From: Maricaulis parjimensis | GTDB taxonomy: Bacteria > Pseudomonadota > Alphaproteobacteria > Caulobacterales > Maricaulaceae | Assembly: GCF_016817355.1 (NCBI RefSeq) | Contig: NZ_JADOTT010000005.1 | Span: 124,001 to 188,000, forward strand | Reading direction: 5' to 3' | DNA length: 64,000 bases | Shown here: positions 1,028 to 53,859 of the stretch, piece after piece | How the letters are laid out: the number at the start of each line of letters is the position of its first letter | Position numbering within the stretch: position 1 is the stretch's first letter | The notes under the pieces: model-generated | What the model saw: only the letters and a program-made list of their open reading frames with translations | Databases searched by the model: none | Told to the model about the DNA's origin: nothing | Made by a program: the position numbers and the translations under genes

Positions 1028-1111
1028 CGTCCTACATTCCCTTGCGATACAGACATGATCTATAGGCCATAATGCTCAAAACGAGCATGGCGTCGCACAT
1101 GAAAGCTGTCC

Positions 1112-7856: not shown

Positions 7857-9127
7857 GCGGACCCTCGACCTACAAGCCGTCCACCGGCATCGAGAAGTGG
7901 CTCGACAGCCGACTTCCGATCATCCGGCTGGGCTATGACAGCTTCGTCGACTTCCCGACGCCGCGGAACCTGAACTACTGGTGGACGTTCGGCGGGATCC
8001 TCGCCGTCTTCCTGATGATCCAGATCATCTCCGGTATCGTTCTGGCGATGCACTATGTCGCGCACGAAGATTATGCCTTCGAGAGCGTCCAGCGCATCAC
8101 CCGCGACGTGCCCTTCGGCTGGCTCATCCAGTCCATGCACGCCAATGGCGCGAGCTTCTTCTTCGTCGCCGTCTACCTGCACATGTTCCGGGGTCTATAT
8201 TACGGATCCTACAAGGCACCGCGCGAGATCCTCTGGATCCTCGGTGTCGTGATCTACCTGCTGATGATGGCCACGGCCTTCATGGGCTATGTGCTGCCGT
8301 GGGGCCAGATGTCCTATTGGGGCGCCATGGTGATCACCAATTTGATCGGCGCACTGCCCTTCATCGGCGATGCGATCCGGGAATGGCTGTGGGGTGGTTT
8401 CTCCGTTGGCCAGGCCACGCTGAACCGCTTCTTCTCCCTGCACTACCTGCTGCCCTTCGTGATCGCCGGCGTTGTCGGCCTGCACATCTGGGCGCTGCAC
8501 GTGCCGGGCAATGGCAATCCGGCCGGTCTGGAAATCAAGGACCCGAAGAAAGACGCTCTGCCCTTCCACCCGTACTACACGGTGAAGGACGGCTTCGCGA
8601 TCATCGTCTACCTGATGGTTTTCGCCACCTTCGTCTTCTACATGCCGGGTGTGCTGGGCCATGCCGACAACTATATCGAGGCGAACCCGCTCTCGACGCC
8701 GGCCCACATCGTGCCTGAATGGTACTTCCTGCCCTTCTACGCGATCCTGCGCGCTGTCACCTTCGACATCGGCCCGATCGACGCCAAGCTGGGCGGCGTG
8801 CTGGCCATGTTCGGTGCCATTGCGATCCTGTTCGTCCTGCCCTGGCTGGACACGTCCAAGGTTCGCTCCATGCGGTACCGTCCGCTGACGCGCTGGTTCT
8901 TCATCTTCTTCGTCATCGCCGCCCTTGGTCTGGGCTGGTGTGGTGCGAAGAACCCGGATGATCCGGTGCCGCTGCTGGGCTTCAAATTCGTGTACCTGGC
9001 GCAGTTCCTGACGCTGTACTACTTCGCCTACTTCGTGGTGATCCTGCCGCTGCTCGGCATCATCGAGAAGCCGAAGGATCGTCCGGCATCGATCGAGGCG
9101 TCTGTCCTCGGCAATGACAAGTCCTAA
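7853..9127 (+). CDS. petB: Cytochrome b of the bc1 complex
   Basis: A 424-residue cytochrome b, the membrane core of complex III that holds two b haems and the Qo and Qi sites. Visible hallmarks include [20 protein letters not shown] (haem-ligand histidine region), [20 protein letters not shown] (Qo site), the second histidine region [20 protein letters not shown], and [13 protein letters not shown] (the PEWY motif). It is not fused to cytochrome c1, unlike the form in some Rhizobiales. It is coupled to petA by an ATGA overlap and followed 15 bases later by petC. Confidence 0.97.
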
Positions 9128-50743: not shown

Positions 50744-51853
50744 CTAGATCGCCACCAGATCCACGGGCTTTTCCTGCTGGGTCGGATCAAAGCTGGCGGG
50801 CTTGTCCGGCTTGGGCAGGTCGAGCATGGCCTGGACGGAGGCGCGGGCGCCTTCGATGACGGTGTCCGGCACGGTTACTTCATGCTGTTCCAGACGCAGG
50901 CAGTCATAGATGTTTTCCAGCGTGATCCGTTTCATGTGCGGGCAGAGATTGCACGGGCGGATGAACTTGATCTCCGGCACATCGGCGGCGACATTGTCGC
51001 TCATCGAACACTCGGTCAGCAGGACGGCTTTCTTGGCGCCGCTATGCTTGGCCCAGTCAGCCATGGCCGCGGTCGAGCCGGCATAATCGGCAGCCTGGAC
51101 CACTTCCAGCGGGCTTTCCGGGTGGGTGATGATCACCACGCCCGGGTGCGCGTCGCGCAGGTCCTGGATGTCCTGGGCAGTGAATTGCTCATGCACTTCG
51201 CAGCTGCCGGCCCAAGTGAGGATTTTCACATCGGTCTGGGCGGCGACATTCTTGGCCAGATACTGGTCCGGCAGGAGAATGACCGTGTCCGAGCCGAGGC
51301 TTTCGACAACCTGGACAGCGTTCGACGAGGTGCAGCAGATATCGCACTCCGCTTTCACATCGGCCGAGGTGTTCACATAGGTCGCCACCGGAATGCCGGG
51401 ATAGGCGGCCTTGATACGGCGGACATCCTCGCCCGTGATCGAGCTGGCCAGCGAGCAGCCGGCCTCGGTATCGGGGATGAGGACCTTTTTCTCCGGAGCG
51501 AGCACTTTGGCCGTCTCGGCCATGAAGTGGACGCCGGCCTGGACGATGATGTCGGCCTCGCTCTCGGCTGCCATGCGGGCCAGGGCCAGGCTGTCACCCA
51601 TCAGATCGCCGACGCAGTGGAAAATGTCGGCGGTCATGTAGTTGTGGGCGAGAATGACAGCGTTTTTTTCTTTTTTGAGCTGGTTGATCGCATGGATCAG
51701 CGGCGCCTTGGCCGGCCACTCCATGGGCGTCACCACATGCTTCACCTTCTCGTAGAGATGGTCCGTGGCCGCCTTGACCTCATCCGTATATGCCAGTTCC
51801 GGCCGGTCCTGATCAAAGCCTTCAGGCGTTCCGTCCCAATTCAATCCGTCCAT
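50744..51853 (-). CDS. nadA: Quinolinate synthase
   Basis: A 369-residue [4Fe-4S] enzyme that condenses iminoaspartate with dihydroxyacetone phosphate to quinolinate. Motifs are ILAHNYMTADIFHCVGDLMG, PDTEAGCSLASSI, CDICCTSSNAVQVVESL (cluster cysteine), TWAGSCEVHEQF and FIRPCNLCPHMKRITLENI (C-terminal cluster cysteine). Start M11 of the frame (MDGLNWDGTPEGF, 51853) is preferred; the ATG at 51883 overlaps an upstream palindrome. It is the first gene of nadABC and is preceded by three NadQ-like boxes. Confidence 0.96.
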   Translation of the reverse strand: MDGLNWDGTPEGFDQDRPELAYTDEVKAATDHLYEKVKHVVTPMEWPAKAPLIHAINQLKKEKNAVILAHNYMTADIFHCVGDLMGDSLALARMAAESEADIIVQAGVHFMAETAKVLAPEKKVLIPDTEAGCSLASSITGEDVRRIKAAYPGIPVATYVNTSADVKAECDICCTSSNAVQVVESLGSDTVILLPDQYLAKNVAAQTDVKILTWAGSCEVHEQFTAQDIQDLRDAHPGVVIITHPESPLEVVQAADYAGSTAAMADWAKHSGAKKAVLLTECSMSDNVAADVPEIKFIRPCNLCPHMKRITLENIYDCLRLEQHEVTVPDTVIEGARASVQAMLDLPKPDKPASFDPTQQEKPVDLVAI

Positions 51854-51867
51854 TTTCCCCTCCCTTT

Positions 51868-51882
51868 TGCTCGCAGTGAGCA
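51868..51882. promoter_or_regulatory. NadQ-like operator 1
   Basis: TGCTCGCAGTGAGCA: 5-bp inverted arms TGCTC/GAGCA, 15 bases before the nadA start. It is one of three copies upstream of nadA. Confidence 0.75.
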
Positions 51883-51929
51883 TTAGTGGGATCTGAAAAT
51901 AGGCGGCTCGTCACAGGGCCGCCCCCTTT

Positions 51930-51944
51930 TGCTCGAAATGAGCT
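51930..51944. promoter_or_regulatory. NadQ-like operator 2
   Basis: TGCTCGAAATGAGCT: one arm differs at the last base. It lies just downstream of the predicted transcription start, in a good position for blocking elongation or initiation. Confidence 0.7.
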
Positions 51945-51956
51945 TTAGTCGGGAAA

Positions 51957-51985
51957 TATATAAATGCTCACATTGAGCAAAGCAA
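51957..51985 (-). promoter_or_regulatory. nadA promoter with operator 3 in its spacer
   Basis: Read on the minus strand: a -35 TTGCTT (51985-51980), a 17-bp spacer and a -10 TATATA (51962-51957). The spacer contains the palindrome TGCTCAATGTGAGCA (minus-strand reading, 51965-51979), so a repressor bound there would exclude RNA polymerase. Confidence 0.7.
51965..51979. promoter_or_regulatory. NadQ-like operator 3
   Basis: TGCTCACATTGAGCA: inverted arms TGCTC/GAGCA. It is the copy placed exactly between the -35 and -10 elements of the nadA promoter. Confidence 0.75.
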
Positions 51986-52032: not shown

Positions 52033-52362
52033 TCAGGCTTCGGGGATCTGGAAACCGCGGCTGTGGAGTGTCCAGATTGCGTGGCCCAGGCCGGTCAGGG
52101 CGAGGCCCAGGATCAGGCAGACCGGGAAGCCGACACCGGCGGCGACCAGCGCGAACGTGATCGCGCAATTGGCGGCGGCGGGCAGAAGGAGTTGGCGTTT
52201 GGTGATCCGGTTCATCGGCAGGACGCACAGGCCGACCATCAGCGCCATGACAAGGGGCAGGCCCAATTCATAGCGTTCCAGGCTGATGAATTGCAGGGCC
52301 AGCGCAGTCAGACAGCAGACCAGAAAACCAGCCCCGGTTTCGATCAGCCATGCCTGCCGCAT
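52033..52362 (-). CDS. Small membrane protein of unknown function
   Basis: A 109-residue protein with four predicted helices: LIETGAGFLVCCLTALALQF, then LGLPLVMALMVGLCVLPM, LPAAANCAITFALVAAGVGF and VCLILGLALTGLGHAIWTLH. I see no known family motif. ATG 52362 is chosen; a GTGGGG run precedes it. An upstream ATG (52380) has no ribosome-binding site. Three phased TTGC...GCAA boxes sit upstream. It lies between nadA and the RebB-like gene. Confidence 0.55.
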   Translation of the reverse strand: MRQAWLIETGAGFLVCCLTALALQFISLERYELGLPLVMALMVGLCVLPMNRITKRQLLLPAAANCAITFALVAAGVGFPVCLILGLALTGLGHAIWTLHSRGFQIPEA

Positions 52363-52459: not shown

Positions 52460-52813
52460 CTATTCCGGGCTGTCAGTCTCGTTGGGCAGAATTTTGTCCA
52501 CGTCGAGGCCTGTGGCTGCGGTGTCGACATCCAGCAGGGTCGAGACCCCTTGGGTCGAGGACGCCTGTTCCAGAACATTCTGATTTTGCTGTGCGTTGGT
52601 CGCATTGTGAGCGGCATTGCCGAGGGCTTGGCCCGTTGCCTGATAGAGATTTCCCATCGCCATTTCCGGCGCATCACCGACCACTTTGACATTGGCCTGC
52701 GTGACCGCATCAGTGATCTGCGGGTTGACGATGTCAGCGTCCTGGGCGGCTGCGCTGGCCGCCAGGCCCAGAGATGTCAGGCCCAGCAGGGTCCAGTGAA
52801 GGGGGTGAAGCAT
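52460..52813 (-). CDS. RebB-like R-body family protein with a signal peptide
   Basis: A 117-residue protein. Residues 30-93 match the RebB family (R-body structural proteins): NPQITDAVTQANVKVVGDAP, EMAMGNLYQATGQALGNAAH and NATNAQQNQNVLEQASSTQG. R-bodies are protein ribbons in Caedibacter that unroll explosively; many proteobacteria have uncharacterised reb genes. Here a leader (WTLLGLTSLGLAASAAAQ) suggests export, unlike classical cytoplasmic Reb proteins. It has a strong AGGAGG ribosome-binding site, 5 bases before ATG 52813. It is orphan: no further reb genes within this window. The C-terminal tail is acidic. Confidence 0.82.
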   Translation of the reverse strand: MLHPLHWTLLGLTSLGLAASAAAQDADIVNPQITDAVTQANVKVVGDAPEMAMGNLYQATGQALGNAAHNATNAQQNQNVLEQASSTQGVSTLLDVDTAATGLDVDKILPNETDSPE

Positions 52814-52887
52814 GATGTCCTCCTGCAATTCGCCGCAAGGTCTAGCACAGAAGGGTTCCGATCCGCTTAAATCGCTTGCCGGGCTTG

Positions 52888-53859
52888 CTAGCCTTCTTTC
52901 AGGCGCGGCGTGGAAAGACCCAGCGAGGGCAGGCCGGCGAGGGCTTCGCGGCGATAGCGGTAGAGTTCGGCAGGGCGGCCGCCCGTCTGGCTTTCTACCT
53001 TGCCTGTGCCTTCCACGAAGCCGGTACGGTCCAGCGCTCGCCGGAAATTCTGTTTGTGCAGACGGTATCCGATAATTGCCTCGACGCCCTGTTGCAGGCC
53101 GGAGAGGGTGAAGAGGTCGGGCATGAGCTCGAAGACGATGGGCCGGTATTTGATCTTGCCGCGCAGGCGAGAAATCGCGGTCGCCAGTATGCGCCGGTGA
53201 TCGGAGGCCATGGACAAGCCGAGGGCAGGGCACAGGGACGGATCGTCGACCTGACCATCCCGGGCGGCCTCCGCGACAAGACCAGCCTCGTAGAGCAGTT
53301 CATAGCGGTCCAGGACGCGTTCTTCATTCCAGGTTTCGCCACCCATGGCGAACGCCGTCTTGAGGCGATCATGCCGGGAGGCGCGGCGGCCGGGCACGCC
53401 GGCTTCATCGGCCCAGGCTGAGAGGCGGGGAATGATGTCGGTCTCGATCACATCCGGCTTGCCCTGGCGCCAATCTTCCCAGGGGAAGAAGTCATACCAG
53501 TCGCGCCAGCGACCCCCGCCATCCGGCGGCGTGGCCGTGTCGGCCGTCAGGGCGAGATAGCCGATCGAGATGATACGGGCATCTTCCGACCCGGTGAGGG
53601 CCGCCAGCGGCGCTTCGCGGCCGCGGTCGCCGAATGTGTAGAGCTGTTCGACATAGCCCAGCTGGAAGCGGGCCTGTTCGGCCACCCAGCGGCGAAGGCC
53701 GATCTCGAAAGTGCGATGGCGGGCCGGATCGAACGGACCGAAGGGCAGGGCAACGCCGCCGCCCGCCTGCGGCACGATCAGGACGCGCGGCGCGTCGCTG
53801 TCGACGGACAGGATGACCGCATTGAGGCCGACAGAAAGGGACTGACCGGCCAGTTCCAT
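52888..53859 (-). CDS. nadQ: NadQ-type NAD biosynthesis repressor
   Basis: A 323-residue regulator. The N-terminal half is Nudix-like: GLNAVILSVDSDAPRVLIVP, PFGPFDPARHRTFEIGLRRW and VEQLYTFGDRGRE. The Nudix box lacks the catalytic REx2EE set, so it is a ligand sensor rather than a hydrolase. The C-terminal part is an NrtR-type winged helix: MPDLFTLSGLQQGVEAIIGY, LHKQNFRRALDRTGFVEGTG and TGGRPAELYRYR. This matches NadQ (COG4111), predicted to repress nadABC in Alphaproteobacteria, and the three palindromes ahead of nadA fit it. It overlaps the HD-hydrolase stop by 1 base (TGATG). Confidence 0.88.
   Translation of the reverse strand: MELAGQSLSVGLNAVILSVDSDAPRVLIVPQAGGGVALPFGPFDPARHRTFEIGLRRWVAEQARFQLGYVEQLYTFGDRGREAPLAALTGSEDARIISIGYLALTADTATPPDGGGRWRDWYDFFPWEDWRQGKPDVIETDIIPRLSAWADEAGVPGRRASRHDRLKTAFAMGGETWNEERVLDRYELLYEAGLVAEAARDGQVDDPSLCPALGLSMASDHRRILATAISRLRGKIKYRPIVFELMPDLFTLSGLQQGVEAIIGYRLHKQNFRRALDRTGFVEGTGKVESQTGGRPAELYRYRREALAGLPSLGLSTPRLKEG

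Follow-up and report, generated by a model that had tools for sequence, protein, structure and literature searches.

The window analysed here is a 64,000-nucleotide stretch of the Maricaulis parjimensis genome. It contains a single gene of the reb family, flanked by a regulator and by genes of NAD synthesis. The relevant features, in window coordinates, are the following.

50744-51883, minus strand: nadA, the flanking anchor of the conserved locus (PF02445, 362.6 bits; synteny).
51868-51979, no strand assigned: three TGCTCNNNNTGAGC palindromes upstream of nadA (pattern matches).
52033-52362, minus strand: small, very hydrophobic protein of 109 residues counted from MRQAW, between reb and nadA, with about four membrane helices by eye.
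52460-52813, minus strand: reb, an orphan gene of the putatively exported type, 117 residues (PF11747, 104.2 bits; sole match in the genome; translation).
52514-52717, minus strand: RebB domain, codons 33-100, with the QITD, KVVGD and HNATNAQQ motifs (PF11747; AlphaFold2 helix).
52745-52813, minus strand: predicted Sec signal peptide MLHPLHWTLLGLTSLGLAASAAA, codons 1-23, with cleavage between A23 and Q24 (our own rule, not SignalP).
52819-52824, minus strand: AGGAGG as ribosome-binding site, separated from the reb ATG by 5 nt (sequence).
52888-53859, minus strand: nadQ/nrtR, 323 residues, pointing the same way as reb and lying 74 nt upstream of it (PF21906 NrtR_WHD, 70.8 bits).

The reb reading frame runs uninterrupted from ATG to stop. 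Residues 33-100 of the translated protein align with the complete RebB model (PF11747, positions 1-68 of 68) at E 3.9e-30, and the score of 104.2 bits compares with a curated cut-off of 24 bits. These data confirm an earlier note on this DNA, which had recognized a RebB-like core and a near-perfect ribosome-binding site in front of it. The signature motifs of RebB are QITD and NA..QQ, and a KxxxD/E motif in domain 1 is diagnostic (PMC13430693). The window protein carries both signature motifs, as PQITDAV and HNATNAQQN, and has an intact KxxxD/E motif in the form of KVVGD. Judged by its sequence and its placement in a tree of Reb proteins, the protein is a true member of the RebB family. It contains no cysteine at any position. 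AlphaFold2, supplied with a 58-sequence alignment, predicts a single helix from residue 31 to residue 108, for most of which pLDDT exceeds 90. The leader lies outside this helix and is modelled with low confidence. Both the alignment and the model therefore speak against the objection, raised in the earlier note itself, that the leader might be part of the normal Reb fold. No relative in the PDB was found by sequence. The same note had described a single reb gene at this site. A search of the genome (3.35 Mb, 17 contigs, 99.98% complete) for a second PF11747 match returned none at E<=0.001, nor at E<=10. None of 14 control genomes contained a match (0/14).

The proposed position next to nadQ is also correct, since the frame at 52888-53859 encodes an NrtR/NadQ winged helix. 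Downstream of reb follow nadA and then nadB. The small hydrophobic protein between reb and nadA could be assigned to no family, either in NCBIfam (searched with an adjacent frame) or in Pfam (searched with a longer ORF); similar hydrophobic ORFs occupy the equivalent site in congeners with and without reb. The TGCTCNNNNTGAGC palindrome occurs five times in the window, versus 0.20 occurrences expected by chance. The copies before nadA are probably NadQ/NrtR operators, and a control of reb by them is not evident. One further copy near the start of the window (1074-1087) may mark another NadQ/NrtR-regulated gene. The neighbourhood of reb thus consists of genes for NAD synthesis and its regulation, an HD-domain protein and the small hydrophobic ORF. 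Among the genes directly adjoining reb, which is the range covered here, there is no R-body partner gene (sigma factor, rapA or synteny group genes).

The RebB domain is preceded by the 23-residue leader MLHPLHWTLLGLTSLGLAASAAA, followed by QD. This segment consists of a hydrophobic core and an AxA-type site (A21-A22-A23), with glutamine 24 at position +1. Four congeners encode leaders of the same type: MRATHLIASGFILVAGAGTAAWS followed by QT in G066, MTHAIKLILAVTAAFGLSVAAHA followed by QD in G064, MTRAFALILAVPATLGLSIAAEA followed by QD in G063, and MRTLIIAAAMGSLVHGLTAAEA followed by QD in G072, where the beginning of the Reb domain is missing because of a frame break. All five Maricaulis leaders show a hydrophobic core and an (A/S)-type signal-peptidase-I-type site, followed by glutamine at residue 22-24. 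Between deep lineages the leaders are 22-30% identical, compared to 42-68% for the mature parts, which suggests that the type of the leader has been kept rather than its letters.

We formalized this pattern in a rule of our own. Close to the start there must be 9-15 consecutive residues that are uncharged and hydrophobic and are not preceded by any acidic one; within the next 2-9 residues, positions -3 and -1 must be occupied by small residues, and the cut must fall at position 15-35. With glutamine at +1 as an added requirement, all six leader-bearing proteins pass, namely the five from Maricaulis and one from a more distant genome (G282, see below). As a background we used internal-Met segments of long ORFs in the loci analysed. 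Here, 22 of 4416 segments (0.5%) pass the rule with glutamine and 6.7% pass without it; the lower rate is somewhat flattering because the glutamine requirement was set after the leaders had been seen. In addition, the five Maricaulis leaders share descent and do not count as five independent events.

A basic residue in the n-region is common in real signal peptides, but it is not obligatory. The n-region of the window leader contains His3 and His6 only, without lysine or arginine, whereas Lys or Arg is present at the n-regions of G063, G064, G066, G072 and G282. The apparent export signal of the earlier note therefore stands in so far as the leader looks Sec-like and shares its type with four congeneric orthologues; the basic n-region is missing from the window copy. 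This gap gives some room to an alternative according to which the protein is a lone ordinary Reb in the cytoplasm or at the inner membrane, with the leader acting as an uncleaved hydrophobic anchor or being ignored altogether. The occurrence of leaderless lone reb genes at the same locus in G062 and G068 would fit this explanation as well. We nevertheless consider it unlikely, given that four congeners share the leader type with basic n-regions and an AxA end before glutamine, and that no comparable leader other than that of G282 was found outside Maricaulis among 427 Reb cores.

This last number derives from a screen of 427 distinct Reb cores, drawn from genome contigs (73 loci) and from samples of the order, the class and the phylum. 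The only convincing leader outside Maricaulis, MRTIAMSLALAMTAGTALA followed by QT, belongs to the degenerate protein of G282, from the Caulobacteraceae-like family f3. This protein no longer has the half of the domain that carries QITD, and it has kept the segment AAHNATNGQQQ...QASTTQGVS. None of the 99 other genomes of its genus contains a reb of this type (1/100 overall). No further leader-bearing member was detected with the exported profile among 385 genomes sampled from the class and 299 sampled from the phylum. Every other genome of the class sample with a full reb match has 2-11 copies, and the reb proteins encoded on plasmids are all canonical. Several proteins that passed the rule were rejected as exported candidates. 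In the Xanthomonas- and Stenotrophomonas-type passes (MQPSARAASVASLVG...) the hydrophobic stretch lies in or beside the Reb core, and in L021, L034, L028, L042 and L125 the start that was used lies upstream of the standard MAFPT/MAIPT start. The one match on viral contigs, a weak one (L164, 4854-5285, IMGVR_UViG_3300020043_000875) is not a Reb protein but a phage protein, which we take to resemble DUF3310, containing the stretch VNPQITDAVTQAN. This stretch has the same sequence as the beginning of the Reb domain and directly precedes the conserved part of the phage protein; most relatives align only after it or at lower identity.

Having a single reb gene is not exceptional in itself. Five genomes of the Caulobacterales genus g28 (G190, G210, G218, G250 and G418) each contain one leaderless full-length reb, and taxa with only one reb copy are mentioned in PMC3583457. 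The g28 proteins (L115, L117-L120) end in long Ala-rich acidic tails, the length of which depends on the species.

Within Maricaulis, a reb match is present in 7 of 19 congeneric genomes: the window genome (G000), G062, G063, G064, G066, G068 and G072. All seven copies sit between the nadQ regulator and nadA, and some of these loci also contain an rluA-like pseudouridine synthase gene beside reb. Intact leader-bearing genes are found in the window genome, G063, G064 and G066, and the copy of G072 is broken. G062 and G068 encode a leaderless lone reb of another sub-type at the same nadQ-nadA site. In nine congeners the nadA locus is readable and there is no reb match. Absence from nine of the 16 congeners with the locus, together with the broken copy of G072, indicates that the gene is dispensable. 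In a tree of 41 proteins, the exported-type sequences of G066, G064 and G063 form a clade (99/91), and the window protein branches next to it, its exact position lacking resolution. A separate long branch (100/99) unites G062 and G068. In the NadA tree the exported type appears on several deep branches (G066, G072, G000 and G063/G064). This distribution fits ancestral presence followed by repeated loss, and transfer of reb within Maricaulis is a possible alternative.

The closest relative of the window genome is G062 (NadA 97% identical). The DNA of the two genomes is 84% identical up to reb and 87% identical after it, and the only part that differs is approximately 447 bp long and contains reb. 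The exchange resembles a swap of alleles, with window positions 52460-52910 corresponding in G062 (L089, about 7911-8033) to a different, leaderless reb sub-type. As read from these flanks, the difference is a precise replacement.

Such a patchy record (of the 16 congeners that have the locus, seven contain reb, one of them a broken copy) might suggest that the gene is what is left of an earlier reb cluster, in decay and without present function, and the degenerate middle region of the G063 and G064 proteins and the degenerate G282 protein point in the same direction. This explanation appears quite improbable in view of the start codon, ribosome-binding site and leader type that are retained across deep branches, the 32 invariant columns among four divergent sequences, and the dN/dS of the mature part between G000 and G066 (about 0.22 at a dS of 1.09), even if dS is near or past saturation for most pairs. 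Between G064 and G063 the dN/dS of the mature part is about 0.42.

We then turn to the mature proteins. The four exported-type proteins carry net charges of -11, -11, -13 and -12, with -11 for the window copy. Canonical MAFPT proteins average -1.6 (n = 177, range -5 to +2). Since the leaderless Maricaulis proteins of G062 and G068 are acidic too (-12 and -8), acidity follows the lone Maricaulis gene and not strictly export. Three of the four intact exported-type proteins (G066, G064 and G063) have glutamate at the lysine position of KxxxD/E. G063 and G064 also contain proline and acidic insertions within the long helix. For the G064 orthologue (taken to be that of M. maris MCS10), AlphaFold2 predicts a helix at residues 70-107 alone, at low confidence (mean 54).

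R-bodies are coiled ribbons made inside some bacteria, with Reb proteins described as their cytoplasmic parts; one defining property of an R-body system is an SDS-insoluble coiled ribbon. The earlier note had raised the prospect of an exported R-body-like fibre. On this account, Sec-exported Reb subunits of a single kind would polymerize, within the periplasm or at the cell surface, into an R-body-like ribbon or fibre that might extend on a change of pH or on contact with a host. The window protein does retain the full core (104 bits), QITD, KVVGD, NAT..QQ and one long confident helix. With KxxxD and an unbroken helix in place, packing of the Reb kind is still possible for it. Nevertheless, two or more structural Reb proteins make up the R-bodies that have been characterized (RebA/RebB, PMC3583457; RebP1/RebP2, PMC8322103). 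In E. coli, formation of R-bodies requires RebA, RebB and RebC together (PMC3583457), and both RebP1 and RebP2 are present in the R-bodies of strain PA14 (PMC8322103). Where at least two clustered structural reb genes are expected of an R-body producer, the window genome has one. The strong negative charge also makes a classical R-body ribbon unlikely, and so do the missing KxxxD/E and the interrupted helix of orthologues. The present analysis gives at most weak support to the exported fibre, which we regard as having a slim chance of being correct, chiefly for the window copy with its intact core.

The interpretation we favour, with a probability of roughly 0.6, is that the gene encodes a Sec-exported, repurposed lone Reb helix that acts at the envelope or outside the cell and is not an R-body. 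Early in the evolution of Maricaulis, a Reb protein would have gained a Sec signal peptide, and a single reb gene would have been retained at the nadQ-nadA locus in part of the genus. The protein would be made with the 23-residue leader that is visible in the sequence. This leader would direct Sec export, and signal peptidase I would cut at AxA before the glutamine, a step for which the conserved pattern argues strongly. The cut would free a 94-residue acidic, mostly helical protein (the helix being a prediction) into the periplasm or beyond, where it may work without partners as a helical envelope protein, either soluble or loosely self-associating. A coiled R-body is not part of this proposal, since the known R-bodies depend on at least two Reb proteins and the packing features are eroded in the exported orthologues. 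A Reb building block known from the cell interior thus appears to be at work outside the cytoplasm.

The surveys covered here do not describe such a protein. The main text of a 2026 survey makes no mention of a signal peptide, export, the periplasm or an orphan Reb (PMC13430693). Its synteny analysis dropped patterns with fewer than three reb genes, so that a lone reb falls outside that part. Two studies from 2013 and 2021 (PMC3583457 and PMC8322103) are likewise silent on signal peptides in Reb proteins; Maricaulis, an orphan reb and secretion of Reb are not mentioned in PMC3583457, nor is Reb export in PMC8322103. In the literature outside subscription journals, we found no paper that names both Maricaulis and RebB. 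A lone reb as such also occurs in relatives within the Caulobacterales, and what these surveys leave unmentioned is the exported form. If our interpretation is true, the leader-bearing lone Reb lineage represents a natural experiment on a Reb helix without partners and outside the cytoplasm. Since the culturable M. maris MCS10 has an orthologue, this idea is directly testable.

Compared to known systems, the window protein shares the full RebB domain, QITD, NAT..QQ and the long helix with the products of canonical RebB clusters (MAFPTAVN... type; Caedibacter; PA14). It is 44% identical to RebB from Caedibacter taeniospiralis over residues 27-114 and 67-69% identical to several canonical Reb proteins over residues 29-109. 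Unlike these clusters, it has a signal-peptide-like leader, a single gene, a net charge of -11 and no reb neighbours, and its orthologues have lost KxxxD/E and part of the helix. The reb genes of genus g28 (MAFPTNVNDQ...) resemble it in providing one PF11747 match per genome and in belonging to the order Caulobacterales, but they are leaderless, have a long Ala-rich acidic tail, and occupy another locus type and another branch of the tree. The genes of G062 and G068 share the nadQ-nadA locus, single occurrence and acidity, but lack the leader and have a diverged C-terminal half. In contrast, the G282 protein (L130/L165) shares a leader, ending in ALA before glutamine, and the AAHNATNGQQQ...QASTTQGVS segment, but the QITD half is gone and its net charge is only -2.
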